Source of the DNA: Pseudomonadota bacterium
Lineage (GTDB): Bacteria > Pseudomonadota > Gammaproteobacteria > Burkholderiales > Burkholderiaceae_C
Assembly: GCA_963204815.1 (NCBI GenBank)
Contig: CAUJHQ010000105.1
Span: 62,001 to 126,000, forward strand
Direction: 5' to 3'
Length of the DNA stretch: 64,000 nt
Part shown: positions 12,251 through 28,035 of the stretch, in pieces
Layout of the letters: each line of letters starts with the position of its first letter
Numbering within the stretch: position 1 is the first letter of the stretch
Notes under the pieces: generated by a model
What the model saw: only the letters and a program-made list of their open reading frames with translations
Told to the model about the DNA's origin: nothing
The model's database searches: none
Position numbers and translations under genes: made by a program

Positions 12251-14473
12251 TCAGGCCGGTGACAAGCTCACGGCCACGCCGCTCAGCACCGCGTTGCCGG
12301 ACAGCGGGTCGCGCGCCGCGTCGTCGAACAGCGCGTTCAGGTTGGCGCCCGGCCGCTGCGCGGCCAGCGCGAGCCGCGCGCCCGGCAGGTCGTGGCCCCA
12401 GCCGTGCGGCAGGCTGACCACGCCCGGCCGCAGAGTACCGTTCACTTCGACCGTCACGTCGAGCCGGCGGCCGTTCGCGGCCAGCGTGGCGCGCGCGCCG
12501 TCGGCCAGGCCCAGGCGCGCGGCGTCTTCCGGGTGCACCCAGGCGGTGCAGCGGAACGGGCCCTTCGCCAGCGTGGGCAGGTTGTGCATCCAGCTGTTGT
12601 TGCTGCGCACGTCGCGCCGGCCGATGACGACGAGCGGCGGCGCCGGCGTGTCCAGGTCGGCCAGTGCGCGCGGCAGGTCGGCCAGCAGCAGCGGCGGCGC
12701 CAGCTCGACCTTGCCGCTGGGCGTGCGCAGCACTTCGGGGATGCGCGGCGCCAGCGCGCCGAGGTCGATGCCGCCCGGCGCCGCGATCACGCGGTCGAGC
12801 GTCAGGCCGCCGGGGTTCTGGCCGAAGCGGTCGCCGTAGGGGCCGCTGCGCAGCGCCAGGTCGACCAGGCGCTCCGGGCCGCGCCGGCCGCTGGCGTTCA
12901 GGGCCTGCATCACGATCGGCGCCTGCTCGCCGGCCTGCTTGCGCAGTTCGTCCATCAGCAGCGCGTCGTCGAAGGCTTCGACGTCGGCCCGCGCGCCATC
13001 GCCGCGCGCGATGGCGGCCAGCCGCAGCAGGTTCTGCCATTCCGCCGGCTGCCCGGCCGGCGGCGCGAACACCGCGCCGCTGAAGCGCGCGTGGTTGCGG
13101 AAGCTGAACTGCGGGAACGCGAAATCGTAGTGCGCGTCTTCCAGCGGGCTCGGGCCGGGCAGGATGACGTCGGCGTGGCGCGTCGTCTCGTTGAGGTAGA
13201 TGTCCAGGCTGACCATGAACTCCAGCCGCTCGAACGCGGCGGCGAGCCGGGCGCCGTTCGGTGCCGAGAGCACCGGGTTGCTGGCGATCGAGATCAGCGC
13301 CTTCACCTGGCCGGGGCCGGCGGTCTCGATCTCCTCGGCGAGCACGCCGATCGGCAATTCGCCGAAGACCTCGGGTGCGGCGCTCACGCGGCTGGCCCAG
13401 CGGCCGGTGCCGACGCCGCGGCCGTGCCCGGGCGCGCCCATCGTGTTGTGGGCGAACGCGGCGGCCTTGGGGAACATCGCACCGCCGGCTTCGTCGAGCT
13501 TGGCGGTGAGCACGTTGACCACGTCGACCAGCCAGGAGGCCAGCGTGCCGTAGGCCTGCGTGCAGGTGCCGATGCGGCCGTAGAGCGCGCCGCGCGGCGC
13601 CGCCGCGAGCTCGCGCGCGAGGCCGCGGATGGCGGCGGCGTCGAGCCCGCAGCGCGCCGCCACGCGCTCGGGCGAGAAGGGCGTGACGGCCTGGCGGAGT
13701 TCGTCGACGCCGTTCACATGGCCGGCCAGGCGGCCGAGCCGCACCCGGCCTTCGTCGAACAGCGTGTGCACCAGGGCCGCGAGCAGGAAGACGTCGGCGC
13801 CCGGGCGGATGGCATGGTGCGCGTCGGCGATCTCGGCCGTTTCGGTGCGCCGCGGGTCGATGACGACGAGCCGGCCGCCGCGCGCACGCAGCGCCTTCGC
13901 CTTGCCGCGGAAGTCCGGCACCGTCCACAGGCTGCCGTTGCTGGCCACCGGGTTGGCGCCGATCACCACCAGCAGGTCGGCGCGCTCGATGTCCGGCACC
14001 GGAATGCTCAGCCAGTGGCCGAACATCAGCCCGCACGACAGCTGCTTGGGCATCTGGTCGAGCGTGCTCGCGGAGTACACGTTCTTCGTGCCCAGCGCCT
14101 TCGCGAGCCGACTGAAGTAGAGGATCAGCGACATCTTGTGCGCCGACGGGTTGCCCACCGACAGCGCCACCGCGTCGCGCCCGTCGCGCTGCAGGATCGG
14201 CACCAGGCGGCGTTCGATCTCGGCGAAGGCCTCGTCCCATCCGACCTCGACGAAGCCGCCGTCGCGCTTGACGAGCGGGCGGCGCAGGCGGTCGGGGTCT
14301 TCGTGCAGGTCCTTCAGCGCGTAGCCCTTCGGGCAGACGTAGCCGGCGCTGAAGACGTCGTGGTCGGCCCCGCGGACGCCGAGCACGCGCGCGCCCTGCG
14401 TGCGCACCTCCAGCCCGCAGCAGGCTTCGCACAGCGGGCAGATGCGGTAGTGGCTCTGTTCGGCGTCGGTCAT
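12251..14473 (-). CDS. Molybdopterin-dependent oxidoreductase with N-terminal 4Fe-4S site
   Basis: A 740-residue catalytic subunit of the DMSO reductase/formate dehydrogenase superfamily. The N-terminus binds one 4Fe-4S cluster (Cys12, Cys15, Cys19 and Cys47 in YVCPKG). Cys147 in KQLSCGLMFG lies where nitrate reductases place the Mo-coordinating cysteine, so a Cys-ligated Mo-bisMGD centre is likely. IGANPVASNGS and SIASNPVLS mark the dinucleotide-binding domains and RRDVRSNNSWMHNLP the C-terminal domain. No Tat signal is visible, so it should be cytoplasmic. No electron-transfer or chaperone subunit is adjacent. Substrate is unknown; it is not a clear NasA, NapA or FdhF. Confidence 0.88.
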   Translation of the reverse strand: MTDAEQSHYRICPLCEACCGLEVRTQGARVLGVRGADHDVFSAGYVCPKGYALKDLHEDPDRLRRPLVKRDGGFVEVGWDEAFAEIERRLVPILQRDGRDAVALSVGNPSAHKMSLILYFSRLAKALGTKNVYSASTLDQMPKQLSCGLMFGHWLSIPVPDIERADLLVVIGANPVASNGSLWTVPDFRGKAKALRARGGRLVVIDPRRTETAEIADAHHAIRPGADVFLLAALVHTLFDEGRVRLGRLAGHVNGVDELRQAVTPFSPERVAARCGLDAAAIRGLARELAAAPRGALYGRIGTCTQAYGTLASWLVDVVNVLTAKLDEAGGAMFPKAAAFAHNTMGAPGHGRGVGTGRWASRVSAAPEVFGELPIGVLAEEIETAGPGQVKALISIASNPVLSAPNGARLAAAFERLEFMVSLDIYLNETTRHADVILPGPSPLEDAHYDFAFPQFSFRNHARFSGAVFAPPAGQPAEWQNLLRLAAIARGDGARADVEAFDDALLMDELRKQAGEQAPIVMQALNASGRRGPERLVDLALRSGPYGDRFGQNPGGLTLDRVIAAPGGIDLGALAPRIPEVLRTPSGKVELAPPLLLADLPRALADLDTPAPPLVVIGRRDVRSNNSWMHNLPTLAKGPFRCTAWVHPEDAARLGLADGARATLAANGRRLDVTVEVNGTLRPGVVSLPHGWGHDLPGARLALAAQRPGANLNALFDDAARDPLSGNAVLSGVAVSLSPA

Positions 14474-14605: not shown

Positions 14606-15703
14606 CTACTCGGCCGCGCCCAGCGTCACCGCCTGCCGCCGCGTGCGGCCCTCGCGCCACACGCTGAGCGTGACGCGCTCGCCCGGCTGGCGGCGCTCCA
14701 GCAGTTCGAGCATGTCGTCGAGGTCGGCCACGGCCTGGTCGTCGACGGCGGTGATGACATCGCCGGCGATGACGTCGTTGCCGCGGCCGCGCCGGAACGG
14801 CTGCAGGCCGGCGCGCGCCGCCGGGCCGTCGGGCGCCACCTGCACCAGCGCCACGCCCTTGGGCAGGTTCAACGCGCGGTGCAGGCCGGCGGGGCCGGCG
14901 GTGACGCCGATCGCCGGCCGCACGAAGCGGCCATCGCGGATGAGCCTCGGCACGATGCGGTTGACCTCGTCGGCCGGGATCGCGAAGCCGATGCCGGCCG
15001 ACGCCCCGCTCGGGCTGGCAATCTGCGTGTTGACGCCGATCAGCCGCCCGGCGCTGTCGAGCAGCGGGCCGCCGGAGTTGCCGGGGTTGATGGCGGCATC
15101 GGTCTGGATCACGCCGCGGATCGTGCGGCTGTTGAAGGACTCGATCTCGCGGTTCAGCGCGCTGACGATGCCGGTGGTGAGCGTCTGGTCGAGGCCGAAC
15201 GGGTTGCCGATGGCGTAGACCTTCTGGCCGACGACGAGGTCGCGGCTGCTGCCCAGCGGGATGGGCGGCAGCTTGTCCCTCGGCGCGTCGATCTTCAGCA
15301 CCGCGAGGTCGCGGTCGGGAAAGGCGCCGACGAGCTTGGCGCCGTAGGTCGACTGGTCGGCCAGCGTCACCCGGGCCGCGCTCGCACCCTGGATGACGTG
15401 GAAGTTGGTGACGAGGTGGCCTTCGGTGTCCCAGACGAAGCCGGTGCCGGTGCCGCGCGGCACCTGCTGCGCGTTCAGGCTGAAGAAATCGCGCTGCGTC
15501 TCCAGCGTCGTGATGTGCACGACCGACGGCGACAGGCGGCGGAAGACCTCGATGTTGGCGATCTCGTCGGCGGCGAGCGGGCCGCGCGGCGTGACGGCGC
15601 GCGGCGCGGCGTCGGCGCGGGCGGCGTCGGCGGGCGGTGCGCCGAGGACCAGGGTGACCGCCAGCGCGGCGGCGGCGAGGGCGGCGTTGCAGAGGTTCGG
15701 CAT
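14606..15703 (-). CDS. Periplasmic HtrA/DegP-like serine protease with one PDZ domain
   Basis: A 365-residue S1C protease. A cleavable signal peptide (MPNLCNAALAAAALAVTLVL, ending PADAA) directs it to the periplasm. The trypsin domain has the triad His102 (TNFHV), Asp132 (PDRDLAVL) and Ser210 (NPGNSGGPLL). The single PDZ domain spans about 260-360 (GVALVQVAPDGPAARAGL, GDVITAVDD). With one PDZ it is closer to DegS than to DegP, but the cleavable-looking signal suggests a soluble enzyme. It is transcribed away from the galactose-oxidase gene across a 180-bp spacer with a palindrome. Confidence 0.93.
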   Translation of the reverse strand: MPNLCNAALAAAALAVTLVLGAPPADAARADAAPRAVTPRGPLAADEIANIEVFRRLSPSVVHITTLETQRDFFSLNAQQVPRGTGTGFVWDTEGHLVTNFHVIQGASAARVTLADQSTYGAKLVGAFPDRDLAVLKIDAPRDKLPPIPLGSSRDLVVGQKVYAIGNPFGLDQTLTTGIVSALNREIESFNSRTIRGVIQTDAAINPGNSGGPLLDSAGRLIGVNTQIASPSGASAGIGFAIPADEVNRIVPRLIRDGRFVRPAIGVTAGPAGLHRALNLPKGVALVQVAPDGPAARAGLQPFRRGRGNDVIAGDVITAVDDQAVADLDDMLELLERRQPGERVTLSVWREGRTRRQAVTLGAAE

Positions 15704-15883: not shown

Positions 15884-18800
15884 ATGAAGCTTGCCGCTCG
15901 CCAACCTGCGTCGTGGACGCTCGGTCTTGCGACCGCCCTGATGCTGGCATCCTGCGGCGGCGGCGACGCCGGCAGCGATGGCGTGGTGGCGAGTGCGCCG
16001 GCCGCATCGACGAAGAAGGTGGGCGGCGAGCGCCGCATGCGCGCGCTCGCGATGACGCCGTCCGACGCCGCGCTGGCGCGCTGGGAGCCGCTGGTCAACC
16101 TGTCGCTCGTGCCGGCCGCCGGCGCGGTGCTCGGCGACGGCAGGGTCATGTTGTGGGCATCGAACGCGCGCACCACGTTCGGCGGTGGCGGCCACACCTA
16201 CACGACGCTGTTCGACCCGGCGACCAACACCGCCACCGAGCGCGACGTCACCACGACCTCGCACGACATGTTCTGCCCCGGCACCGCGCGCCTGCCCGAC
16301 GGCCGGCTGCTCGTCAACGGCGGCGTCAACGCCAACCTGTCGAGCCTGTACGACCCGGCGACCAACACCTGGAGCAGCGCCGCCGGCATGAAGATCCCGC
16401 GCGGCTACAACGCGAACACCGTGCTCGCCGACGGCTCGGTGATGACGCTCGGCGGCTCCTGGAGCGGCGGCACTGCCGGCGGCAAGAGCGCCGAGATCTA
16501 CACCCCCGCCACCGGCTGGCGCGTGCTGACCGGGGTGCCCTACGACCCCTACCTGCTGAACGGCACCTACAACGGCTGGCAGACCGACGCGCACGCCGCG
16601 ATCATCCCCACCGGCAACGGCCGCGTGCTGATGGCCGGCCCGAGCCCCGAGATGGCGTGGATCGACACCCGCGGCAACGGCAGCAGCACGCCGGCCGGCC
16701 GGCGTGGCGACGACCAGCCTTCGCTCGGCGGCCCGGTCGTCATGTACGAGGCCGGCAAGATCCTGAAGGTGGGCGGCGCGACGTGGAACGGCAACGTGCC
16801 GGCCACCGCCGGCGCCTACCTGATCGACACCACCGGTGCCACCGCCGCGGTGAAGAAGCTCGCGCCGATGGCCTACCCGCGCATGTACGCCAACAGCGTG
16901 GCGCTGCCGAACGGCCAGGTGCTGGTCGTCGGCGGGCAGACCTACGTGCAGGAGTTCAGCGACTCCAACGCCGTGCTCGCGCCCGAGCTCTGGGACCCCG
17001 AGACAGAGACCTTCACCGTGCTGCCGGCGATGGCGGTGGCGCGCAACTACCACTCGCTGGCGATGCTGCTGCCCGACGGCCGCGTGATGTCGGCCGGCGG
17101 CGGCCTGTGCGGCTGCGCGGCCGACAAGCCGAACCTGCAGATCATGTCGCCGCCGTACCTGTTCAACCGCGACGGCACGCCGGCGGCGCGGCCGGTGATC
17201 ACCGCCGCGCCGGCCACCGTGGGCTACGGCACCGCCACCACCGTCACCACCGACGGGCCGGTGGCGGCGTTCTCGATGATCCGCCTGGGCGCGGTCACGC
17301 ACACCGTCAATAACGACCAGCGCCGCGTGTCGCTGTCGTTCGCGGCCGGCGCCGGCAACAGCTACCAGGTCGCGATCCCGAGCAACCCGGGCATCCTGGT
17401 GCCGGGGCAGTGGATGCTGTTCGCGATGGACGCGAACGGCACGCCCTCGGTGGCGAAGATCGTCACCGTCAGCAACACCGGCGCGCCGACGCTGGAGAAC
17501 CCGGGCAACATCGACGCCGCCCTCGGCGGCAGCATCAGCGTGCCGATGGTCGCCAGCACGCCGAGCGGCACGCTCGCCTTCAGCGCCAGCGGCCTGCCGG
17601 CCGGCGTGACGGTGAACCCGTCCACCGGTGCGATCGGCGGCTCGCCGACGGCAGCGGGCAGCTTCCTCGTCACGCTGCGCGCGACGAACGGCACGCAGAC
17701 GGTCAGCACCGACCTGCTGATCACCGTCACGAACAACGGCACCGGCAGCGGCCTGCTCGGCCAGTACCACGCCGGCACCGGGCTCGCCGGGCTGCCGCTG
17801 CTGCAGCGCGTGGAGGTGCCCGACTTCGACTGGGGCACCGGCGCGCCCGGCGCCGGCGTCGGCGTCGACAACTTCTCGGTGCGCTGGACCGGCTGGATCG
17901 AGGCCGCGGCCACCGGGCCGACGCAGATCCGCACCGTCAGCGACGACGGCGTGCGCGTCTGGATCGACGACCGCCTGGTCATCGACAACTGGACCGACCA
18001 CGCCCCGGCCAACGACACCGCGGCCGTCGCGATGGTCGCCGGCCAGCGCTACCGCGTGACGATGGAGTACTACGAGGCCGGCGGTGGCGCGGTGGCGCGC
18101 CTGCAGTGGCTGCCCGCGGGCGCCTCGGCCTACACGGCGGTGCCGGCGACGCGGCTGTACGCGGCCGCGCCCCTGTCGACGAGCAACGTCGCGCTCGGCG
18201 CGGCGGCGTCCATGTCGTCGGACTACCTGGGCATCGGCGCGCAGCCGGCCGTCGACGGCGACACGAATGGCGTGCTCGCCGGCAACAGCACCGTGCACAC
18301 GCTGGGCAACGCACAGGAATGGTGGCAGGTCGACCTCGGCGGGCTGCGCCGCATCGACCTCGTCCAGCTGTGGAACCGCACCGACTGCTGCAGCGACCGG
18401 CTGCAGAACTTCACCGTCTTCGTCTCCGCCACCGACATGACCGGCCGCAGCTTCGAATCGCTGGGCGCCGACCCCGCGGTGCAGAAGCGCGTGGTGGGCA
18501 CGACGCGCGCGCTGCCGGCCATCGGCATCCCGGTGAACGGCCTCGGCCGCTACGTGCGCGTGCAGCTCGCCGGCACCAACTTCCTGCAACTCGCCGAGGT
18601 GCAGGTGTTCGGCGGTGCGGCGGCGTACAACACGCCGTCGATCGCGGCGGTGCCCAACCAGTCGACCGTGGAAGACATCAGCGTCAGCCTAGCCGTCAGC
18701 GCCACCGACCCCGACGCCAACCCGCTTGCGTACAGCGCCAGCGGCCTGCCGCCCGGCCTGGCGATCAACGCCGTCAGCGGCCGCATCAGCGGCACGCCGG

Positions 18801-21481
18801 ACACGGCGGGCCGCTACGACGTGACCGTCACGGCCACCAACGAAGGCGGGCTGTCGGCCAGCACCACGTTCACCTGGTCGGTGCTCGGCCCGGTGCCGCA
18901 GGTCACCTCGCTGCCGGCGCCGCTGGCCATCAGCGGCGGCAGCGTCGCCTACGCGCCGGTGCTGGGCGACGGCGCGCCGGTGCAGTACAGCTGGAACTTC
19001 GGCGACGGCACGGCGGACACGGCCTGGTCGGCCAGCGCCGGCGTCACCCACGCCTTCGCCGCGCCCGGCATCTACACCGTGACCTTGACGGTGCGCACCG
19101 AGGACGGCCGCAGCAGCACCACGCGCTTCGTGCAGGCGGTGGTGTCCGCCGACCCGACGGCGCCGGCGCGGGCCTCGGCGTCGCTGCTCTTCGAGCCGCG
19201 CGCCGGCAGCTCGGCGCGCCTGTGGGTGCTGAACCCCGACAACGACTCGGTGACGGTGTTCGACGCCGCCACCCGGGCGCGCGTGGCCGAGATCAACGTC
19301 GGCAGCGCGCCGCGCACGCTGGCGCGTGCCGCCGACGGCCGCATCTGGGTCGTCAACAAGGGCGGTGCGTCGATCAGCATCGTCAACCCGTCGACGCTGG
19401 CGGTGGCGGCCACGGTGGCGCTGCCGCGCGCATCGCAGCCGTTCGGCATCGTCTTCTCGCCGGCCGACGGCAGCGCCTACGTGGCGCTGGAAGGCACCGG
19501 CCAGGTGCTGAAGCTGAACGGCAGCACCGGCGCCATCACCGCCACGCTGGCGGTGGGCGACAACCCGCGCCACCTGGCCTTCACGTCCAACGGCAGCCGG
19601 CTGCTGGTGTCGCGCTTCATCACGCGCGCGCTGCCCGGCGAAGGCACGCTGGCGGTGTCGACGGCCGGCGTCGGCGGCGAGGTGCTCTTCGTCGACCCGG
19701 TGACGATGTCGACCACGCGCACCGTGGTCCTGGCGCACAGCGACCGCCCCGACAACGAGGTGCAGGGCCGCGGCGTGCCGAACTACCTGGGCGCGGCCGC
19801 CATCGCGCCCGACGGCCGCAGCGCCTGGGTGCCGTCCAAGCAGGACAACATCCTGCGCGGCACGCGCCGCGACGGCCGCGCGCTGGACTTCCAGAACACC
19901 GTGCGCGCGATCAGCTCGCGCATCGACCTCGCCAGCGGCACCGAGGATGCCGCCGCGCGGGTCGACCACGACAATTCGAGCGTCGCCAGCGCGGCCACCT
20001 ACCACCCGAGCGGCGCCTACCTGTTCGTCGCCCTCGAGACGACGCGCCAGGTGGCCGTGCTCGACCCGGCGGGCCGGCGCGAGCTGTTCCGCTTCGAGGC
20101 CGGGCTGGCGCCGCAGGGCGTGCTCGTCTCGGAGGACGGCCGCACGCTGTACGCGCACAACTTCATGGACCGCAGCGTCAGCGTGATCGACCTCGGCCCG
20201 TTGCTCGACTTCGGCCAGCTGGGTGTGACGACGACGGCGACGCTGTCGACGGTGACGACCGAGAAGCTCGCCGCCAACGTGCTGAAGGGCAAGCAGCTCT
20301 TCTACGACGCCCGCGACCCACGGCTGGCGCGCGACGGCTACATGAGCTGCGCGAGCTGCCACAACGACGGCAGCCACGACGGCCGCACCTGGGACCTGAG
20401 CGGGCAGGGCGAAGGCCTGCGCAACACCATCAACCTGCGCGGCCGCGCCGGCCTGGGCCAGGGCTTCCTGCACTGGAGCGCGAACTTCAACGAGGTGCAG
20501 GACTTCGAGGCGCAGATCCGCGGCCTCGCCGGCGGCACCGGCCTGATGAGCGACGCGCAGTTCAACACCGGCACGCGCAGCCAGCCGCTGGGCGACGCCA
20601 AGGCCGGCGTCAGCGCCGACCTCGACGCGCTCGCGGCCTACGTGGGGTCGCTGAACAGCTTCGCGCCGAGCCCGCTGCGCAATGCCGACGGCAGCCTCAG
20701 TGCGGCGGCGCAGGCCGGCCGCACGGTGTTCGCGCAGAAGAACTGCGCCAGCTGCCACGCCGGCACCGGCTTCACCGGCAGCGGCGACGCGGCGCAGCTG
20801 AAGAACATCGGCACGATCAAGGCCAGCAGCGGCACGCGGCTGGGTGGCACGCTGCCCGGCATCGACGTGCCGACGCTGCGCGACGTGTGGGCGACCGCGC
20901 CCTACCTGCACGACGGCAGCGCGGCCACGCTGGCCGACGCGGTGGCCGCGCACAACGTCGTCACGCTGACGGCGGCCGAGCTGTCCAACGTGGTGGAGTA
21001 CCTGAAGCAGATCGGCAGCGAGGAGAGCAGCGCGCCCGCGTCCACCGCGAGCGGCACGGGCCTGCGCGGGCAGTACTTCTCCAACCGCACGCTGACCGGC
21101 ACGCCGGTGCTCACGCGCACCGAGGCGGTCAACTTCAACTGGGGCACCACGGCGCCGGGCGCGGGCGTGCCGGCCGACAACTACTCGGTGCGCTGGACCG
21201 GCACCGTGGAGGCGTCGGCGACCGGCAGCTTCCGCTTCCAGACCAACTCCGACGACGGCGTGCGGGTGTGGGTGAACGGCGTGCAGGTCATCAACAACTG
21301 GACCGACCACGGCGCCACGCTGAACACCACGGGCAACATCTCGCTCACGGCCAACCAGCGCTACACGATCACGGTGGAGTACTACGAGCGCACCGGCTCG
21401 GCGGTGATGCAGCTGCGTTGGCGCCTGCCGGGCACGACGACCTACGTGGCGGTGCCGGCGAACCGGCTCTACGCGCCGTGA
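15884..21481 (+). CDS. Multidomain lipoprotein: copper radical (galactose-type) oxidase fused to PA14, discoidin, PKD, propeller and two-haem peroxidase-like modules
   Basis: At 1865 residues this is the largest gene here. A lipobox (LMLASC, Cys24) follows the signal peptide. Residues ~60-530 align closely with fungal galactose oxidase, and every cofactor residue is present: Cys131 (HDMFCPG) and Tyr175 for the thioether, the stacking Trp193 (GGSWSGG), Tyr389-His390 (RNYHS) and His473 (VTHTVNNDQRR). The Cys-Tyr spacing is 44 residues, as in the fungal enzyme. Then come an Ig-like repeat (~540-615), PA14 (~622-762), F5/8-type discoidin (~767-910), Ig-like (~918-1003), PKD (~1025-1086), a YVTN-type propeller (~1100-1440), two CASCH haem sites (Cys1489/His1493, Cys1621/His1625) in a CCP/MauG-like module ending TAPYLHDGS, and a second PA14 (~1725-1865). 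A strong Shine-Dalgarno (ggagggg) precedes ATG 15884. It likely oxidises a surface glycan or alcohol to aldehyde plus H2O2. Confidence 0.93.
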   Translation: MKLAARQPASWTLGLATALMLASCGGGDAGSDGVVASAPAASTKKVGGERRMRALAMTPSDAALARWEPLVNLSLVPAAGAVLGDGRVMLWASNARTTFGGGGHTYTTLFDPATNTATERDVTTTSHDMFCPGTARLPDGRLLVNGGVNANLSSLYDPATNTWSSAAGMKIPRGYNANTVLADGSVMTLGGSWSGGTAGGKSAEIYTPATGWRVLTGVPYDPYLLNGTYNGWQTDAHAAIIPTGNGRVLMAGPSPEMAWIDTRGNGSSTPAGRRGDDQPSLGGPVVMYEAGKILKVGGATWNGNVPATAGAYLIDTTGATAAVKKLAPMAYPRMYANSVALPNGQVLVVGGQTYVQEFSDSNAVLAPELWDPETETFTVLPAMAVARNYHSLAMLLPDGRVMSAGGGLCGCAADKPNLQIMSPPYLFNRDGTPAARPVITAAPATVGYGTATTVTTDGPVAAFSMIRLGAVTHTVNNDQRRVSLSFAAGAGNSYQVAIPSNPGILVPGQWMLFAMDANGTPSVAKIVTVSNTGAPTLENPGNIDAALGGSISVPMVASTPSGTLAFSASGLPAGVTVNPSTGAIGGSPTAAGSFLVTLRATNGTQTVSTDLLITVTNNGTGSGLLGQYHAGTGLAGLPLLQRVEVPDFDWGTGAPGAGVGVDNFSVRWTGWIEAAATGPTQIRTVSDDGVRVWIDDRLVIDNWTDHAPANDTAAVAMVAGQRYRVTMEYYEAGGGAVARLQWLPAGASAYTAVPATRLYAAAPLSTSNVALGAAASMSSDYLGIGAQPAVDGDTNGVLAGNSTVHTLGNAQEWWQVDLGGLRRIDLVQLWNRTDCCSDRLQNFTVFVSATDMTGRSFESLGADPAVQKRVVGTTRALPAIGIPVNGLGRYVRVQLAGTNFLQLAEVQVFGGAAAYNTPSIAAVPNQSTVEDISVSLAVSATDPDANPLAYSASGLPPGLAINAVSGRISGTPDTAGRYDVTVTATNEGGLSASTTFTWSVLGPVPQVTSLPAPLAISGGSVAYAPVLGDGAPVQYSWNFGDGTADTAWSASAGVTHAFAAPGIYTVTLTVRTEDGRSSTTRFVQAVVSADPTAPARASASLLFEPRAGSSARLWVLNPDNDSVTVFDAATRARVAEINVGSAPRTLARAADGRIWVVNKGGASISIVNPSTLAVAATVALPRASQPFGIVFSPADGSAYVALEGTGQVLKLNGSTGAITATLAVGDNPRHLAFTSNGSRLLVSRFITRALPGEGTLAVSTAGVGGEVLFVDPVTMSTTRTVVLAHSDRPDNEVQGRGVPNYLGAAAIAPDGRSAWVPSKQDNILRGTRRDGRALDFQNTVRAISSRIDLASGTEDAAARVDHDNSSVASAATYHPSGAYLFVALETTRQVAVLDPAGRRELFRFEAGLAPQGVLVSEDGRTLYAHNFMDRSVSVIDLGPLLDFGQLGVTTTATLSTVTTEKLAANVLKGKQLFYDARDPRLARDGYMSCASCHNDGSHDGRTWDLSGQGEGLRNTINLRGRAGLGQGFLHWSANFNEVQDFEAQIRGLAGGTGLMSDAQFNTGTRSQPLGDAKAGVSADLDALAAYVGSLNSFAPSPLRNADGSLSAAAQAGRTVFAQKNCASCHAGTGFTGSGDAAQLKNIGTIKASSGTRLGGTLPGIDVPTLRDVWATAPYLHDGSAATLADAVAAHNVVTLTAAELSNVVEYLKQIGSEESSAPASTASGTGLRGQYFSNRTLTGTPVLTRTEAVNFNWGTTAPGAGVPADNYSVRWTGTVEASATGSFRFQTNSDDGVRVWVNGVQVINNWTDHGATLNTTGNISLTANQRYTITVEYYERTGSAVMQLRWRLPGTTTYVAVPANRLYAP

Positions 21482-21500: not shown

Positions 21501-21977
21501 GTGAGGCGCAGGCGCTGGGCGGTGGGCCTTGCGCTCGCGGCGGCACTGGCCGCGGGCGCATACGCCGTCGCCGTGCAACAGCGCAGCGCCGACGCTGCGG
21601 CGCAGCGCGAGCGCGGCGCCGCGCTCTTCGACGGCCGCGCGCCGCTCGCCGGCCGGCTGGTCGGCCACGAGACCGCGCTGCCGGCGCTGGCCACGCGCTG
21701 CGCCAACTGTCACGACGAAGCAAGCGCGACGCCGGCATCGGAGGCGGCCGCCAGCGCCGCGGCCAAGCCCTTTGCCACCGCGCTCACCGGCGCGCAGCTG
21801 GCGCAGGCGCGGCCCCGCCGCGGCGGGCCGCCCAGCGCCTACGACGCGGCGCGCCTGTGTGCGGTGCTGCGCAGCGGCACCGACCCGGCGCATGTGATGA
21901 TCTCCACCACGATGCCACGCTACGACGTCACCGACCTGCAGTGCCGCGACCTGTGGGCCTTCCTCGGCGCCCGATGA
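21501..21977 (+). CDS. Small membrane-anchored or secreted c-type cytochrome
   Basis: A 158-residue protein with an N-terminal hydrophobic segment after MRRRR (signal or anchor) and one haem-binding CANCH site (Cys67, Cys70, His71). Met near 138 in ISTTMPRYDVTD is a candidate axial ligand. It begins at GTG 21501, 19 bases after the oxidase stop, and its stop overlaps the SCO start by 4 bp, so the three genes form one operon. Likely role: electron donor to, or acceptor from, the haem module of the large lipoprotein (inference from position). Confidence 0.85.
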   Translation: MRRRRWAVGLALAAALAAGAYAVAVQQRSADAAAQRERGAALFDGRAPLAGRLVGHETALPALATRCANCHDEASATPASEAAASAAAKPFATALTGAQLAQARPRRGGPPSAYDAARLCAVLRSGTDPAHVMISTTMPRYDVTDLQCRDLWAFLGAR

Positions 21978-22600
21978 ACCGCGCCGGCCACCCGACGCGC
22001 CGCCAGGCCCTGCTGGCGCTGCTCGCCGCCGCGCCGGCCGCGGCGCAGGCCGCCGGCGCGCCGAATGCGCGCGACGTCGCGCGCAGCAGCCACTTCCCGT
22101 TCGGCCCCGTGGTGCCGACACGCACGCTCGCGCGCTGGCCGGTGACGACGCACCTGGGCGTGGCCACCGAGCTGCCGGCACTGCTGCGCGGCAGGGTCAC
22201 GGCGCTGCAGCTGATGTTCACTGGCTGCAGCGCCACCTGCCCGATCCAGGGCGCGTTGTTCGCGCAGGCGCAGCGCGACCTGAAGGGCGCGGTGGTCGGT
22301 GCTCAGTTCCTGTCGGTCAGCATCGACGCGCTCGGCGACACGCCCGCCGCACTGGCGGCCTGGCTGAAGAAGTTCTCGGCCGCGCCCGGGTGGCTGGCGG
22401 CGGTGCCGCGCGTGCAGGACGTCGACGCCCTCGTCGAGCGCCTGGGCAGCGGCGGCGAGAAGAAGCCGCAGGGCCCGGACCCGCACACCGGCCAGGTCTA
22501 CGTGATCGACCGCCGCGGCGAGCTCGTCTTCCGCACCGCGTCGATGCCGCCGCCGGCGCAGATCGTCGACGCGCTGCGCCAGGTCGACGCCCGCGGCTGA
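21974..22600 (+). CDS. SCO1/SenC-family copper chaperone
   Basis: A 208-residue thioredoxin-fold protein with a signal that begins RRQALLALLAAAPAAAQA (possibly Tat-like). The copper site is complete: Cys85 and Cys89 in FTGCSATCP and His171 in DPHTGQVYVID. SCO proteins deliver copper to cytochrome oxidase CuA or to other periplasmic copper enzymes. Here no cytochrome oxidase gene is near; the neighbour is a copper radical oxidase, so metallation of that enzyme is the most economical role. ATG overlaps the cytochrome stop by 4 bp. Confidence 0.92.
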   Translation: MNRAGHPTRRQALLALLAAAPAAAQAAGAPNARDVARSSHFPFGPVVPTRTLARWPVTTHLGVATELPALLRGRVTALQLMFTGCSATCPIQGALFAQAQRDLKGAVVGAQFLSVSIDALGDTPAALAAWLKKFSAAPGWLAAVPRVQDVDALVERLGSGGEKKPQGPDPHTGQVYVIDRRGELVFRTASMPPPAQIVDALRQVDARG

Positions 22601-22834: not shown

Positions 22835-23317
22835 TCAGCTGATCATGTAGGCCGCCGCCGCGGTGGCGATCAGCGTGCCTTCCTCGTTGACGAGGCGCAT
22901 CTGTGTCGACCCGACACGCCCGCCCAGGCGGGTGACCTCGGCGCTGGCCGTGAAACGCTTGCCGATGCCCTGGCGCAGGAAGTCCACGCGCAGGTCGATG
23001 GTGCCCAGCTTCATGAAGCGGTGCATCACCTGGTCGGCGGTTTCCGACGGGTGCCGCTCACCCACGGCCACCATGACGGCAAACCCGCCCATCGCGTCCA
23101 GCGTGGCCGAGATCACGCCGCCGTGCAGGCGCTGATGCAGGTAGTGCCCGATCAGTTCGGGCCGCATCTCGAAGCTGAGCCGCACGTCGTCGAGCCGGGT
23201 CGACTCGACCTGCAGGCCGAGCACCTGGTTGAAGGTGATGCGCTGTTCGAAGAGATCCTTCAGGGCGGCGTCCAGGCGCGCCTGTTCGGCCGCGTCGCGG
23301 CGGTGTGCAACGGTCAT
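22835..23317 (-). CDS. PaaI/YigI-type hotdog thioesterase
   Basis: A 160-residue hotdog-fold thioesterase. The active-site region reads HQRLHGGVISATLDAMGGFA, the HGG-x-x-x-x-x-D/E pattern of PaaI-like acyl-CoA thioesterases, followed by the strand TIDLRVDFLRQG. It has the length of the YigI-type group. Its start overlaps the BKACE gene stop by 4 bp, so it is the distal gene of the acyl-CoA carboxylase operon and probably releases free acid or CoA from a stalled intermediate (inference). Confidence 0.88.
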   Translation of the reverse strand: MTVAHRRDAAEQARLDAALKDLFEQRITFNQVLGLQVESTRLDDVRLSFEMRPELIGHYLHQRLHGGVISATLDAMGGFAVMVAVGERHPSETADQVMHRFMKLGTIDLRVDFLRQGIGKRFTASAEVTRLGGRVGSTQMRLVNEEGTLIATAAAAYMIS

Positions 23318-24195
23318 GCCGCCATTGTCAACCCGAGCCGCGCCCGTGCCTCCTGCGGTGTGGCGATCTCGCGACCGGCGTTGCGCGCGCAGCGCGCCAG
23401 CGCCTCGATGAGCGCACCGTTGCCGCCGGCCCGCTCGCCGCCGGGCAGGTAGAAGGTGTCTTCCAGGCCGGTGCGCAGCATGCCGCCGAGCTCGGCCGTC
23501 TTCTGGTGCACCGGCCAGATCTCGGCGCGGCCGATGAGCGTGGTCTGCCAGACCGCGCCCTCCGGCGCGTAGCGCGGCAGCAGCGCCAGCAGGTCGGCGT
23601 CGCAGGGCATGCCGCTGGCCACGCCCATCACGAAGTTCACCTCGGGCACGCCGCTGAACATGCCGGCCTTCAGGTACATGCCGACGCTGCGCACGATGCC
23701 GACGTCGAAGCACTCGAACTCCGGGTGGATGTGCAGTTCGTTCATGACGTCCAGGAACTGCTGGATCTTCGACACCGGGTTGTCGAAGACCATCGGCGGC
23801 CAGGCCCAGGTGCCGTCGTCCTTGATCTTCAGGTAGTTCAGGCTGCCGGCGTTGCAGGCGGCGGCCTCGGGCTTCACGCGGCGCAGGCAGGCGAGTGGGC
23901 CGCTGATGTCCTTGCCGACGGTGCCGGTGGTCAGGTTGATGATGACGCCGGGGCAGGCGTCGCGGATCGCGCCGACCACGGCCTCGGCGACATCCGGGTC
24001 CCAGCTCGGCATGTGGCCGAAGCCTTCCTCCTGCGCGCGCAGGTGCACGTGCATGATGCTGGCGCCGGCGTTGAAGGCGTCGCGCGCCTCCGCCGCCATC
24101 TGCGCCGGCGTCACCGGCACCGGGTGCTGCTTCGGGTTGGTCAGCACGCCGGTCAGCGCGCAGGTCAGGATGGCCTTCTCGTCGATTCGGTTCAT
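23314..24195 (-). CDS. DUF849 beta-keto acid cleavage enzyme (BKACE) family
   Basis: A 293-residue TIM-barrel protein of the DUF849/BKACE family. Known members transfer an acyl part of a beta-keto acid to acetyl-CoA, giving acetoacetate and a new acyl-CoA. Metal-binding His49 and His51 (IMHVHLR) and GVASGMPCD are present. The usual N-terminal TGAE motif, whose Glu binds zinc in Kce, reads TGVLTNPKQHPVP here, so it belongs to a divergent subgroup. It overlaps the biotin carboxylase gene by 4 bp and the thioesterase by 4 bp; its place in this operon points to cleavage of the final beta-keto product (inference). Confidence 0.88.
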   Translation of the reverse strand: MNRIDEKAILTCALTGVLTNPKQHPVPVTPAQMAAEARDAFNAGASIMHVHLRAQEEGFGHMPSWDPDVAEAVVGAIRDACPGVIINLTTGTVGKDISGPLACLRRVKPEAAACNAGSLNYLKIKDDGTWAWPPMVFDNPVSKIQQFLDVMNELHIHPEFECFDVGIVRSVGMYLKAGMFSGVPEVNFVMGVASGMPCDADLLALLPRYAPEGAVWQTTLIGRAEIWPVHQKTAELGGMLRTGLEDTFYLPGGERAGGNGALIEALARCARNAGREIATPQEARARLGLTMAA

Positions 24196-26102
24196 TCGGA
24201 CAGCTCCAGTTCGACCAGCACCACGCCCGAGGCGACGGGGTCCTTCACCTTCACGTTCACGGCCTTCACGGTGCCGGCGGCGGCGGCGTGCAGCCACATT
24301 TCCATCTTCATCGCCTCCACGCACACCAGCGGCTGGCCGGCGGCGACCGCGTCGCCCTCGGCGACCGCGATGTGCGCCACCACGCCGGCCACCGGCGCGC
24401 GCGCGCGCCGCGGATCGGCGGCACTGTCGCGGGTGGGGAAGGGCGAGGGCTCGGTGAAGGCGAAGGCGCCGCCGTCGATCACCAGGTGCAGCGTGTCGCC
24501 GTCGTCCACCGCGATGGCGCGGCGCTGCACGCCGTCGAGCTCGAAGCGCACCGCGTCGGCGTCGCGCGCGAGCACGCGCAGGCCCGCCACCGGCGCGCGT
24601 AACGTGCGCGTCGTGCCCTGGCACTGCAGCGTGACGTCGAAGCCGGCCACGCTGGCGGGGCGCGCACCGGCGCGGCCAGCGCGCAGTGCGGCGGCGAGGC
24701 GCCAGGCGTCTTCGCCGGGCGCGGGCCGTTGCAGCAGCGCGTCGCCGGCGGCGGCCCACTCGTCGAGCCGGGTCGTCGTCAGCTGCGCCGCGGCGAACTG
24801 CGGGTGGTTCACCAGGTCGCGCAGAAAGCGGCCGTTGTTCGGCAGGCCGACGAGTGGCACGTCCTGGAGCGCGCGCGTGAGGCGGCGCACCGCGTCGGCA
24901 CGGTCGCGGCCGTGGGCGATGAACTTGGCGACCATCGCGTCGTAGTAGGGCGTGACCTCGCCGCCTTCGGCGAGGCCGTGGTCGATGCGGATCGTGCTGC
25001 GCTCGGGCCGCCAGCCCGCGACGCGCCCCGCCTGCGGCTTCCAGCCGTCGTACGGGTCTTCGGCGTACAGCCGCGCCTCGATGGCGTGGCCGTCGAAGCG
25101 GATCTCGTCCTGCGTCACCGGCAGCGGCTCGCCCGCGGCCACGCGCAGTTGCCATTCGACGAGGTCGAAGCCGGTGATGCACTCGGTGACCGGGTGCTCG
25201 ACCTGCAGCCGCGTGTTCATCTCGAGGAAGTAGTGCTTCAGCTGTGCGTCGACGATGAACTCCACCGTGCCGGCGCCGCGGTAGCCCACCGCCAGCGCCG
25301 CGGCCACGGCGTCGCGGCCCATGGCCGCGCGCATTGCCAGGCTGACGACCGGCGAGGGCGCTTCCTCGATCACCTTCTGGCGCCGCCGCTGCGCGGTGCA
25401 GTCGCGCTCGCCCAGGTGCACCGCATGGCCGTGGGCGTCGCAGAAGACCTGGATCTCGATGTGGCGGCCGTCGTCGACCAGCCGCTCCAGCATCAGCGTG
25501 CCGTCGCCGAAGGCACTGGTGGCCTCGCGACGCGCCCCGGCGAGCGCGGCCGCGAGTTCGCCCGCCTGGCGCACCAGGCGCATGCCGCGCCCGCCGCCGC
25601 CGGCCACCGCCTTCACCAGCAGCGGCAGGCCGAGCGAGAGCGCCTCGGCGGTGAGGCGGTCGTCGCTCTGGTCCTCGCCCAGGTAGCCGGGAGCGCAGGG
25701 CACGCCAGCGGCGAGCATGCGGCGCTTCGCGCCGGCCTTGTCGCCCATGGCGCGGATGGCCTCGGGCGGCGGGCCGATGAAGACGAGGCCGGCCGCCGCG
25801 CAGGCCTCGGCGAAGTCGGCGCGTTCGGACAGGAAGCCGTAGCCGGGGTGCACGGCGTCGGCGCCGGTGGCCTTCGCGGCGGCGAGCAGCGCGTCGATGT
25901 CGAGGTACGACGCGGCGGCCGGCGCCTCGCCGATGCGCACCGCCTCGTCGGCCAGGGCGACATGCGGCGCGCGGGCATCCGCGTCGCTGAACACCGCCAC
26001 GGTGCGGTAGCCCAGGCGCTGCGCCGTGCGCATCACGCGGCAGGCGATCTCCCCGCGGTTGGCGACCAGGATCTTCGAGAGACTCTTCACTGCGGCATCC
26101 AT
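24192..26102 (-). CDS. Acyl-CoA carboxylase biotin-carrying alpha subunit, AtuF-like
   Basis: At 636 residues it has biotin carboxylase (1-450: ILVANRGEIACRV, the ATP loop AVAGGGGRGMRLV, EMNTRLQVEHPVTE), a linker domain, and a C-terminal biotinyl domain with the lysine Lys599 in CVEAMKMEMW. It makes carboxybiotin for the beta subunit encoded four genes away in the operon order. The candidates are methylcrotonyl-CoA, geranyl-CoA and propionyl-CoA carboxylases; the operon order (SDR, beta, dehydrogenase, hydratase, alpha) matches atuB-C-D-E-F of Pseudomonas, so a geranyl-CoA-type substrate is favoured. Exact substrate not proven. Confidence 0.9.
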   Translation of the reverse strand: MDAAVKSLSKILVANRGEIACRVMRTAQRLGYRTVAVFSDADARAPHVALADEAVRIGEAPAAASYLDIDALLAAAKATGADAVHPGYGFLSERADFAEACAAAGLVFIGPPPEAIRAMGDKAGAKRRMLAAGVPCAPGYLGEDQSDDRLTAEALSLGLPLLVKAVAGGGGRGMRLVRQAGELAAALAGARREATSAFGDGTLMLERLVDDGRHIEIQVFCDAHGHAVHLGERDCTAQRRRQKVIEEAPSPVVSLAMRAAMGRDAVAAALAVGYRGAGTVEFIVDAQLKHYFLEMNTRLQVEHPVTECITGFDLVEWQLRVAAGEPLPVTQDEIRFDGHAIEARLYAEDPYDGWKPQAGRVAGWRPERSTIRIDHGLAEGGEVTPYYDAMVAKFIAHGRDRADAVRRLTRALQDVPLVGLPNNGRFLRDLVNHPQFAAAQLTTTRLDEWAAAGDALLQRPAPGEDAWRLAAALRAGRAGARPASVAGFDVTLQCQGTTRTLRAPVAGLRVLARDADAVRFELDGVQRRAIAVDDGDTLHLVIDGGAFAFTEPSPFPTRDSAADPRRARAPVAGVVAHIAVAEGDAVAAGQPLVCVEAMKMEMWLHAAAAGTVKAVNVKVKDPVASGVVLVELELSE

Positions 26103-26881
26103 CGGGCCTTGCGCTTCTGCAGGAAGGCGGTCTGGCCTTCGGTGCCTTCGGGCGACAGCGCGGCCTGCGAGAACACCTCGGCCGCGTGCTGGACCAGGGA
26201 AGCGGGTGGGTGGAAGCGCGCCTTCGCGATCAGTGCCTTCGTCGCCGCCAGCGCGTGGGGTCCGCTCTGCAGGATCTCGCCCAGCACACGCTGCAAGGCG
26301 GCTTCCAGCGCGTCGGCCGCGTGCACCTCGTGCACCAGGCGCAGCGCCAGCGCCTGCCGCGCGTCGAGCTTGCCGCCGGTGACGGCCAGCCGCTTCGCTT
26401 CGGAATAGCCCAGCCGCTCGACGAGGAAGGGCCCGATCTGCGCCGGCACGACGCCGAGCGAGGTTTCGGGGAGGCGGAACACCGCGCTCTCGCCGGCGAT
26501 CGCGACGTCGGCCACGCAGGCGAGGCCGAAGCCGCCGCCCATCACCGTGCCCTCGAGCACCGCCACCACCGCGAGCGGCGTGCTCGCGAACGCGACGCAG
26601 AGCTCGCCGAACGCCGCGTTGACCTTGACGATGGCCTCGGGGTCGGCCGCCAGCCGCATGCGCGCGCCGGCCATGTCCTTGATGTCGGCGCCGGCCGTGA
26701 AGTGGCCGCCGGCGCCGCGGAGCACGACGATGCGGGTGCTGCCGTCACGTTCGGCCGCGGCCAGCGCCTGGCGAAGTTCCAGCACCATCGCCATCGACAG
26801 CGCGTTGCGCACCTCGGGCCGGTTCAGCGTGATCGTCAGCACGCCGCCTTCGGCGTGCACCAGCAGCGTGTCGAGGTTCAT
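26087..26881 (-). CDS. Enoyl-CoA hydratase/isomerase family protein, AtuE/LiuC-like
   Basis: A 264-residue crotonase. It has the CoA-binding ADIKDM loop near 65-70 and the GTVMGGGFGLACVADVAIAG oxyanion-hole segment. The first catalytic Glu of mitochondrial hydratase (GGGCEL) is Gly here (GGGFGL), while the second is kept as Glu139 in RLPETSLG. This single-Glu pattern fits hydratases of glutaconyl-type CoA esters made by the adjoining carboxylase. It overlaps the downstream biotin carboxylase gene by 16 bp and the upstream dehydrogenase gene by 4 bp. Confidence 0.9.
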   Translation of the reverse strand: MNLDTLLVHAEGGVLTITLNRPEVRNALSMAMVLELRQALAAAERDGSTRIVVLRGAGGHFTAGADIKDMAGARMRLAADPEAIVKVNAAFGELCVAFASTPLAVVAVLEGTVMGGGFGLACVADVAIAGESAVFRLPETSLGVVPAQIGPFLVERLGYSEAKRLAVTGGKLDARQALALRLVHEVHAADALEAALQRVLGEILQSGPHALAATKALIAKARFHPPASLVQHAAEVFSQAALSPEGTEGQTAFLQKRKARWMPQ

Positions 26882-28035
26882 GCCGCGTTCTTGCCCGGCA
26901 GCGTGCCTTCGAGCTTGCAGATGATGCCCAGCATCACCTCGTCGGCACCGCCGCCGATGGAGACCAGGCGCGAATCGCGGTAGGCCTGCGAGATCGGGTT
27001 GTCCCAGGTGAAGCCCATGCCGCCCCAGTACTGCAGGCAGTGGTCGGCCACCTCGCGCGTGAGGCGGCCGCACTTCAGCTTGGCCATGCTGGCGAGCTTG
27101 GTGACGTCCTTGCCGCCGATGTACATCTCGACCGCGCGGTAGGTCAGCGCGCGCAGCGCTTCCACCTCGGTGCGCAGCTCGGCCAGGCGGTAGTGAACCA
27201 CCTGGTTGTCGAGGATGCTCTTGCCGAAGGCCTTGCGCTGGCGCGTGTACTCGATGGTCTGGTCGATCAGCCGGTCCATGCTGCGCAGCGAACTGGCCGA
27301 ACCCCACAGCCGCTCTTCCTGGAACTGCAGCATCTGGAACGTGAAGCCCAGGCCTTCCTGGCCGATCAGGTTGCGCTTGGGCACGCGCACGTTGTCGAAG
27401 AACAGTTGCGCGGTGTCGCTGCTGTTCATGCCGATCTTCTTGATCTTCTGCTTCGTGATGCCGGGCGCGTCCATCGGCACCACGATCAGGCTCTTGTTCT
27501 TGTGCGCCGGGCCGTCGCTGGTGTTGGCGAGCAGGCAGCACCAGTCGGCCTTCAGGCCGTTGGTGATCCACATCTTGCTGCCGTTGATGACGTAGTCGCC
27601 GCCGTCCGTCTTCGCGCTCGTCTTCACGGCCGCCACGTCGCTGCCGCCGCCGGCTTCGCTGACGCCCAGGCAGGCCACGAAGTCGCCGGCGATGGTCGGC
27701 GCGAGGTACTCCTTGCGCAGTTCGTCGCTGCCGAAGCGCGCGAGCGCCGGTGTCGCCATGTCGGTCTGCACGCCGATGGCCATCGGCACGCCGCCGCAGT
27801 TGGCCTGGCCCAGCGCCTCGGCCATCACCATGCTGTAGCTGAAGTCGAGGCCCGCACCGCCGAACTCTTCCGGGTACTTCAGGCCCAGCAGGCCCAGGTT
27901 GCCCAGCTTCTTGAACAGCTCGTGGCTGGGGAACTGCTCGGCGTCTTCCCATTCCTTGACGAAGGGGTTGATCTCCTTGTCGCAGAACTTGACGACCGTG
28001 TCCTCGATCTGGCGGTGTTCGGGCGTGAACTTCAT
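26878..28035 (-). CDS. Acyl-CoA dehydrogenase, AtuD/citronellyl-CoA dehydrogenase-like
   Basis: A 385-residue FAD-dependent dehydrogenase. It begins MKFTPEHRQIEDTVVKFCDK and has the FAD motif LGVSEAGGGSDVAAVKT and the C-terminal CLQYWGGMGFTWDNP. The usual MCAD catalytic Glu position (YEGT) reads IGGGADEV, so the likely base is Glu241 in QEERLW, as in isovaleryl- and long-chain dehydrogenases. Length and sequence resemble my recollection of AtuD (385 residues), which oxidises citronellyl-CoA. It is the third gene of the operon, after the SDR and carboxylase beta genes. Confidence 0.9.
   Translation of the reverse strand: MKFTPEHRQIEDTVVKFCDKEINPFVKEWEDAEQFPSHELFKKLGNLGLLGLKYPEEFGGAGLDFSYSMVMAEALGQANCGGVPMAIGVQTDMATPALARFGSDELRKEYLAPTIAGDFVACLGVSEAGGGSDVAAVKTSAKTDGGDYVINGSKMWITNGLKADWCCLLANTSDGPAHKNKSLIVVPMDAPGITKQKIKKIGMNSSDTAQLFFDNVRVPKRNLIGQEGLGFTFQMLQFQEERLWGSASSLRSMDRLIDQTIEYTRQRKAFGKSILDNQVVHYRLAELRTEVEALRALTYRAVEMYIGGKDVTKLASMAKLKCGRLTREVADHCLQYWGGMGFTWDNPISQAYRDSRLVSIGGGADEVMLGIICKLEGTLPGKNAA

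Follow-up and report, generated by a model that had tools for sequence, protein, structure and literature searches.

Layout of the fusion protein

The window analyzed here, 64,000 nucleotides of contig CAUJHQ010000105.1 from a Pseudomonadota bacterium, encodes a protein of 1865 amino acids in which a copper radical oxidase (CRO) is joined to a two-haem unit of the cytochrome c peroxidase (CCP)/MauG superfamily. Its open reading frame (ORF) runs as a single uninterrupted frame from 15884 to 21481 on the plus strand, the strand on which all features lie unless stated otherwise. Read from the sequence, this one polypeptide carries the full set of CRO ligands, two c-type haem sites and a His at the position of an axial Met. 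From N- to C-terminus, it consists of a lipobox signal, the CRO head (a kelch propeller and GO-like E-set; 16073..17470, residues 64-529), an Ig-like domain, a PA14 domain (17741..18163, residues ~620-760), an F5/8 type C, galactose-binding-like domain (18182..18622, residues ~767-913), a second Ig-like domain, a PKD domain (18941..19135, residues 1020-1084), a YVTN propeller with the fold seen in hydrazine synthase beta (19181..20203, residues ~1100-1440), the di-haem module (20204..21043, residues 1441-1720) and a second PA14 domain (21056..21472, residues 1725-1863). The first-pass annotation, concerned with positions 20290-21040 (residues ~1470-1719 of the fusion ORF), had described two CASCH sites 132 residues apart together with the motifs GKQLFYDARDPRL, VPTLRDVW and TAPYLHDGS in the same polypeptide as the oxidase; the exact spacing and all three motifs are confirmed in the ORF, and the fusion is genuine.

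A lipobox (LASC, with Cys24) was read by eye in the signal region, and 67 of 90 fused relatives match a loose lipobox pattern, so that the protein is a probable lipoprotein and would probably be anchored at the cell surface. The propeller and di-haem module are directly joined and together span residues ~1100-1720. Across 90 fusions, head and propeller are separated by anything from 107 to 637 residues, and propeller and haem module by 3 to 6; a variable spacer beside a constant joint suits a diffusible intermediate or a tethered docking partner.

The copper radical oxidase head

The head is closely matched by galactose oxidase structures (E=3.8e-129 with PDB 9g8h and 1.2e-101 with 1gof) and passes the Pfam cut-offs for PF09118 (83.5 bits against 25) and Kelch_6 (56.6 against 25.3); Glyoxal_oxid_N is matched at 30.5 bits, below its cut-off of 37.5. 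Alignment with 9g8h and 6ryx places the cross-linking Cys at Cys131 (16274..16276), the cross-linking radical Tyr at Tyr175 (16406..16408), the axial Tyr and a first His at Tyr389-His390 (17048..17053) and a second His at His473 (17300..17302), corresponding to Cys228, Tyr272, Tyr495, His496 and His581 in the numbering of fungal galactose oxidase. These five first-shell ligands are kept in all 92 heads from haem-module loci, namely 44/44 of type A, 15/15 of B1, 28/28 of B2 and 5/5 of M (types explained below); the 92 comprise 90 fused heads, the frame-split L091 (counted in B1) and the unfused L146_474, which lies beside a fused gene (counted in B2). Among 24 head rows labeled solo, the Cys is present in 23 and the other four ligands in all. 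The head is thus assigned to the galactose-oxidase type of CRO with a complete ligand set, for which a Tyr-Cys cross-link and radical activity are predicted. NF052501, the NCBIfam equivalog for the radical copper oxidase GlxA, is matched at 167.2 bits, below its cut-off of 800.

The likeness to galactose oxidase (1gof, 9g8h; AA5_2) extends to the second-shell Trp (W290), found here as Trp193 (16460..16462), but not to the Arg at position 330 (Arg in 9g8h), which is Gln233 in this head and Arg in only 13 of 44 type A heads. The W290/R330 pair has been described as an indicator, though no proof, of galactose 6-oxidase specificity (PMC11267884), and only its Trp is present. Galactose is a less likely substrate because of this Gln, and the head would be of an alcohol-oxidizing, galactose-oxidase-like type that is probably not galactose-specific.

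Heads fall into a galactose-oxidase-like type A, which includes that of the window, and the remaining types B1, B2 and M, labels that were assigned by hand from the head tree (L179, which branches near the root, went to B2 by default). A Trp occupies the W290 position in 43 of 44 type A heads and in none of the 48 others, of which 47 have a Trp immediately ahead of the radical Tyr. Both placements have been described: W290 of galactose oxidase sits on another loop, W509 and Y510 of a fungal aldehyde oxidase are consecutive, and W288 of GlxA is oriented like the Trp of that aldehyde oxidase (PMC13094651). By these markers, the same propeller/di-haem chassis carries putative alcohol-type heads with the galactose oxidase second-shell Trp and putative aldehyde-type heads with a GlxA- and aldehyde-oxidase-like Trp-Tyr pair.

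The di-haem module

The module scores 37.1 bits with the CCP_MauG profile (Pfam cut-off 25.6) and has two CxxCH sites, which align in 194/194 modules, those with fewer than two having been excluded beforehand. The first CASCH (20348..20362, residues 1489-1493) supplies the proximal His1493, and no distal His accompanies it, unlike in one aligned CCP; the second (20744..20758, residues 1621-1625) supplies the proximal His1625. In two protein searches, 197 of 204 proteins match both head and haem module, and two CxxCH sites are found in 193, one in 3, none in 7 and four in 1; these 204 count the window's own protein twice, and the searches, which admitted lengths of 0.55-1.75 times the query and scored a candidate list of limited size, favor fusions.

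Alignment with 13 solo CCPs locates the residues around the haems. His1530-Trp1531 (20471..20476) is invariant, and Trp1531 aligns with the Trp of the CCP motif 'FWDGR', while Gln1544 matches the CCP Gln. The distal-pocket Glu of 7 of the 13 CCPs falls on Leu1554, near which lie the acidic residues E1537, D1540 and E1542; Gln and Glu are presumed here to form the CCP distal pocket and Trp to be the inter-haem residue. His1690 (20951..20953), present in 194/194 modules, takes the place of a Met found in 12 of the 13 and also in 3o5c and 1iqc, a Met that we take to be an axial haem ligand, and the axial Met of the C-terminal haem of bacterial di-haem CCPs is accordingly missing. The second haem is therefore predicted to be bis-His (His1625/His1690) and the N-terminal haem to be open.

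Bacterial di-haem CCPs (3o5c, 1iqc, 1nml) share with the module the two CxxCH sites, the Trp, the Gln and the PTLRxV...PYxHDG motif, but differ in the His at the axial Met and the Leu at the distal Glu and in not being fused. MauG and MbnH belong to the same superfamily and offer the idea of cofactor maturation, but the NCBIfam scores (mauG 45.8 against 443.85 bits, MbnH 47.4 against 362.85) fall short of the cut-offs. The second haem of MauG has an axial Tyr. An outright label of 'CCP' or 'MauG' was rejected on these grounds, the exchanges of Met for His and Glu for Leu making either name too strong. The first-pass description of a CCP/MauG-like module thus holds at the level of the superfamily but not for a canonical member, as the unit has its own YVTN propeller and these two substitutions.

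The best profile match of the haem module among solved structures is hydrazine synthase gamma, and a YVTN propeller joined to a di-haem CCP-like unit is the arrangement of hydrazine synthase beta-gamma, which the haem unit resembles. The hydrazine synthase family NF052342 is matched at 80 bits only, against an NCBIfam cut-off of 1250, and hydrazine synthase (PDB 5c2v; PMC12758564, PMC12607021) is described with gamma-His144 where a CCP-type Trp stands here; the CRO head of the present protein is a further difference. Among the matches listed by Foldseek and VIA, structures were either propellers or proteins matched through them, with no residue match in the haem half; a model predicted for the isolated haem half had a mean local distance difference test score (pLDDT) of 65.6 and was set aside.

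One explanation of this module is that it is a plain H2O2 scavenger, removing the by-product of the head with electrons from a cytochrome c and taking no part in the radical. Its place in the CCP superfamily, the kept Trp and Gln and a head that, by analogy, would make H2O2 speak for such a role; the loss of the CCP Glu and Met and the lack of the associated cytochrome gene beside type B heads (see below) speak against it, and we consider it quite improbable as the whole account.

Distribution of the fusion

The architecture is not a unique oddity, a possibility ruled out by its frequency in genome and protein searches. A genome scan detected relatives on 243 stretches of GTDB genomes, and the top 80 under a ranking that favors fusions were retained; head and haem module share one ORF in 73 of these best 80, as in the window, and the remaining 7, in which the called ORF contains no head, lie at a contig edge or have a split frame. 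A protein search with the haem region returned 3622 sequences at E<=1e-3 among 7992 scored candidates. In a less biased draw, with the haem module alone as query and the window's genome included in each tally, the module was present in 30 of the 299 genomes examined from the family, 5 of the 369 from the class and 2 of the 299 from the phylum. The 42 family rows beside the window's own correspond to 40 genes (one ORF has two modules and one gene is in two pieces), and a CRO head is in the same ORF in 25 of these, separated by a frameshift in 2 and replaced by an LVIVD-type propeller in 11, the remaining 2 being interrupted by a contig end. The 6 class genes divide into 3 with a CRO head and 3 with a head of another kind, and the single phylum gene has a CRO head. 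The chassis is therefore not exclusive to CROs.

The first-pass annotation knew of no described enzyme with this pairing, and held that a common architecture already characterized in another role would count against its proposal. The architecture is indeed common rather than singular; no paper on a CRO and di-haem fusion, nor a characterization in another role, was found among the matches listed in the open-licence full-text literature. The fusion is a widespread new combination of known kinds.

The non-CRO heads bring in a second explanation, in which the propeller/di-haem unit is an independent enzyme merely carried on exported scaffolds, be it a catalyst of nitric oxide chemistry or a peroxidase or oxygenase with a different compound as its substrate. 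The LVIVD-type and further non-CRO heads are in line with it, as is the best structural match to hydrazine synthase gamma, and distant beta-gamma-like fusions have been reported to be highly prevalent in environmental bacteria (PMC12758564). Against this, all intact family genes whose haem module is more than 60% identical have a CRO head, LVIVD-type and other heads appearing from 60% down, and we regard an independent enzyme as unlikely.

Several carriers were observed in their own right. The 11 family genes with an LVIVD-type head (L165-L175) place it above a PKD-YVTN-di-haem chassis and conserve GNDHG and RE.H motifs; the label rests on a profile of the L168 head and on Pfam matches in 4 of the 11 (L165, L167, L168, L174), the match in L167 being below cut-off, and a search with the L168 head, the one head searched, found no solved relative at E<0.7. 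L180-L182 bear another N-terminal head of ~500 amino acids on the haem chassis, with no match to the L168 head profile and, in L180 and L182, no Pfam match ahead of a Big_5 domain. L155 (G573:C1) has two tandem haem modules in one frame of 2568 amino acids, which doubled its score. At L146 and L201 (G573:C2:504384-510296), three CRO genes stand in a row with the haem chassis on the last only, as if a single haem unit were to serve several heads. Methylotrophs by name are among the carriers (L025, L049, L061, L076, L081, L087), from Methylopila, Methylobrevis, Methylophilaceae, Methylophilales, Chenggangzhangella and Methylobacter.

Relationships of heads and haem units

In a tree of 116 heads (14 identical ones having been dropped from 130), fused heads are interleaved with solo heads. 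A single clade of fused heads is rejected, with a log-likelihood 464 lower and a p-AU of 6e-6, for 33 fused rows (every third fusion plus five named) and 20 unfused rows, among them L146_474; L188, L200, L185, L186, L205, L091 and L179 were omitted as contig-edge, duplicate, long-branch, split or unplaced. A contig end interrupts some of the 24 solo-labeled rows (L188 and L200, as well as L185 and L186, which match the complete L184), and these may represent fusions in truncated form. Between two type A proteins, median identity is 58% in the head and 64% in the haem unit; between types A and B, it is 31% in the head and 62-63% in the haem unit, which is about as similar across head types as within one. 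These patterns are taken to mean that the chassis was acquired by two older lines of CRO, or was passed between them, and a chassis found on two CRO types that do not form one clade is likelier to be a general CRO partner than a partner for a single substrate.

Repeated swapping of heads was also considered and was weakened. The haem-only tree interleaves the head types, with 13 label changes over five groups and 8 for type A, but its well-supported branches force just 2 type A changes, and a propeller plus haem tree (72 of 88 rows) with type A held as a clade lies 13.85 log units above the free search, with a p-AU of 0.80. Separately, two paralogues of Methylibium sp. NZG (L037 and L069) share 86% identity over their haem halves, 61% over their propellers and 36% over their heads, a pattern that looks like local exchange or gene conversion.

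Neighboring genes

Two small genes follow the fusion. The first (21501..21977, GTG start) encodes a membrane-anchored or exported monohaem cytochrome c with an RCANCH site and an MP motif; its match to Cytochrom_C in Pfam (18 bits) is below the cut-off of 21.3, and its relatives keep CxxCH in 44/44 and MP in 44/44. The second (21974..22600), which overlaps the cytochrome gene by ATGA, encodes an SCO1/SenC copper chaperone; two Cys and one His, presumably the copper-binding set of Sco proteins, are kept in 66/66 SCO-like sequences of the fetched loci. The nearest genes flanking this trio are on the opposite strand, so that fusion, cytochrome and SCO look like one unit, and a promoter looked for at the fusion locus was not found. 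Upstream on the minus strand lie a gene for an HtrA/DegP-type protease (14606-15703), divergent from the fusion gene, and a molybdopterin oxidoreductase gene (12251-14473). Downstream, also on the minus strand, is an acyl-CoA catabolic cluster (22835-28035; thioesterase, beta-keto acid cleavage enzyme, MCC-alpha-like biotin carboxylase, enoyl-CoA hydratase and acyl-CoA dehydrogenase).

The two neighbors recur with type A heads. Among 35 type A loci, window included, SCO adjoins the fusion in 31 and the cytochrome in 31, and contig ends truncate 2 of the 4 loci lacking these neighbors; in 10 of the 31, the called cytochrome ORF overlaps the end of the fusion, and the pair lies upstream in four, one of them divergent. 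Among 36 type B loci, a more distant SCO is present in 16 and this cytochrome in none. Across the 299 family genomes, the cytochrome occurs in 16/16 genomes with a type A head and in 0/283 others (Fisher 8e-27, with related genomes treated as independent). In 4 of the 16, it does not adjoin the head; it accompanies SCO in three, and the fourth is a contig of 3405 bases. At L184, genes for cytochrome and SCO come after an unfused type A-like head that lacks the haem unit, which indicates that both genes go with the head rather than with the haem unit.

A third explanation arises from this cytochrome, namely that the protein is a cytochrome-linked dehydrogenase, in which electrons from the alcohol would leave the copper through the di-haem module and the cytochrome c for the respiratory chain, with little or no H2O2 formed. 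Cytochrome domains do likewise for other oxidoreductases. The shared occurrence of cytochrome and type A heads in the same 16 of 299 genomes, its adjacency in 31 of 35 type A loci and the conservation of both haem sites speak for such a dehydrogenase. The variable head-propeller spacer, however, leaves no fixed wire, type B loci keep the haem module with no such cytochrome beside it, L184 has the cytochrome and no haem module, and a bis-His haem probably has too low a potential; the dehydrogenase reading is accordingly a doubtful one.

A proposed built-in haem partner

The reading that we favor, tentatively and with somewhat less than even confidence, is that the propeller/di-haem unit is a built-in haem partner of the CRO, which uses H2O2 and/or keeps the radical oxidized. 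The recurring SCO and cytochrome neighbors and the one chassis on two CRO types are legible in the gene sequences themselves, and the same design with different copper heads in other bacteria suggests a role for the haem unit in support of the copper enzyme. In such a protein, the CRO head would oxidize a primary alcohol with O2 and yield H2O2, which would react at the open N-terminal haem of the propeller/di-haem unit. Oxidizing power from the haem unit could then establish or regenerate the Cu(II)-Tyr radical state, and the unit would also drain excess H2O2, with electrons passing to or from the small cytochrome c via the bis-His haem and the co-encoded SCO protein loading copper. The reaction with H2O2, the action on the CRO and the direction of electron flow are the steps that we infer.

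Precedents with separate proteins favor a built-in haem partner. In Streptomyces lividans, the Tyr-Cys site of GlxA depends for its maturation on Sco and on DtpA, a haem peroxidase, when copper is scarce and none is added, and the authors suggested that Cu(I) oxidation and H2O2 removal are involved; sco was also reported beside Gox genes in certain Burkholderia (PMC4736821). A radical copper oxidase, an Sco chaperone and a haem peroxidase act together there as proposed here, but as separate proteins with a monohaem dye-decolorizing peroxidase, whereas here the di-haem c unit is attached covalently and has a propeller of its own, and a cytochrome c is present in addition. In Colletotrichum and Magnaporthe, an alcohol-type CRO (AlcOx) is likewise paired with an activating haem peroxidase encoded in tandem, and for Colletotrichum electron paramagnetic resonance supports a one-electron oxidation (PMC9770985); unlike the present fusion, that system is fungal and comprises two genes and a class II peroxidase. 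The first-pass annotation had offered two roles for the haem module. That it removes H2O2 is plausible, and its alternative, that it helps to form the Cys-Tyr radical site, gains weight because an SCO gene adjoins the fusion and GlxA needs both Sco and a haem peroxidase (PMC4736821).

Several observations weigh against a haem partner that uses H2O2 to maintain the radical. With Leu1554 in place of the CCP Glu, ordinary peroxidase chemistry may be weak. Bis-His haems often have a low potential, about -330 mV for gamma-II of hydrazine synthase (PMC12607021), and such a haem would probably be poor for tyrosine oxidation unless the other haem goes ferryl. Copper rescues GlxA maturation without DtpA, so that GlxA can, strictly, do without a haem partner (PMC4736821). 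Of the genes with the chassis, 11 of 40 in the family and 3 of 6 in the class have no CRO; CROs are also often found without the chassis, and L184 combines an unfused head with cytochrome and SCO and no haem unit.

A bolder version of the built-in partner is also conceivable, though we think it unlikely to hold in full. The propeller/di-haem unit would be a transferable chassis, a general activase and electron valve for at least two kinds of CRO and for non-CRO heads, which, together with cytochrome c, would let a copper head alternate between oxidase activity with O2 and dehydrogenase activity linked to the cytochrome, and would set the Cys-Tyr radical autonomously.

Significance

The fusion bears on how CROs gain and keep the oxidized radical outside fungi and Streptomyces. 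In vitro, CROs need horseradish peroxidase for maximum activity (PMC9770985). In a large bacterial family, the haem partner seems to be covalently built in, with a copper chaperone and a cytochrome encoded next to it, which makes the upkeep of the radical testable in a single polypeptide. The fusion also gives a hint at what the prevalent propeller/di-haem proteins of hydrazine-synthase-like type may do, and a lead toward self-activating oxidases that may be useful in biocatalysis.

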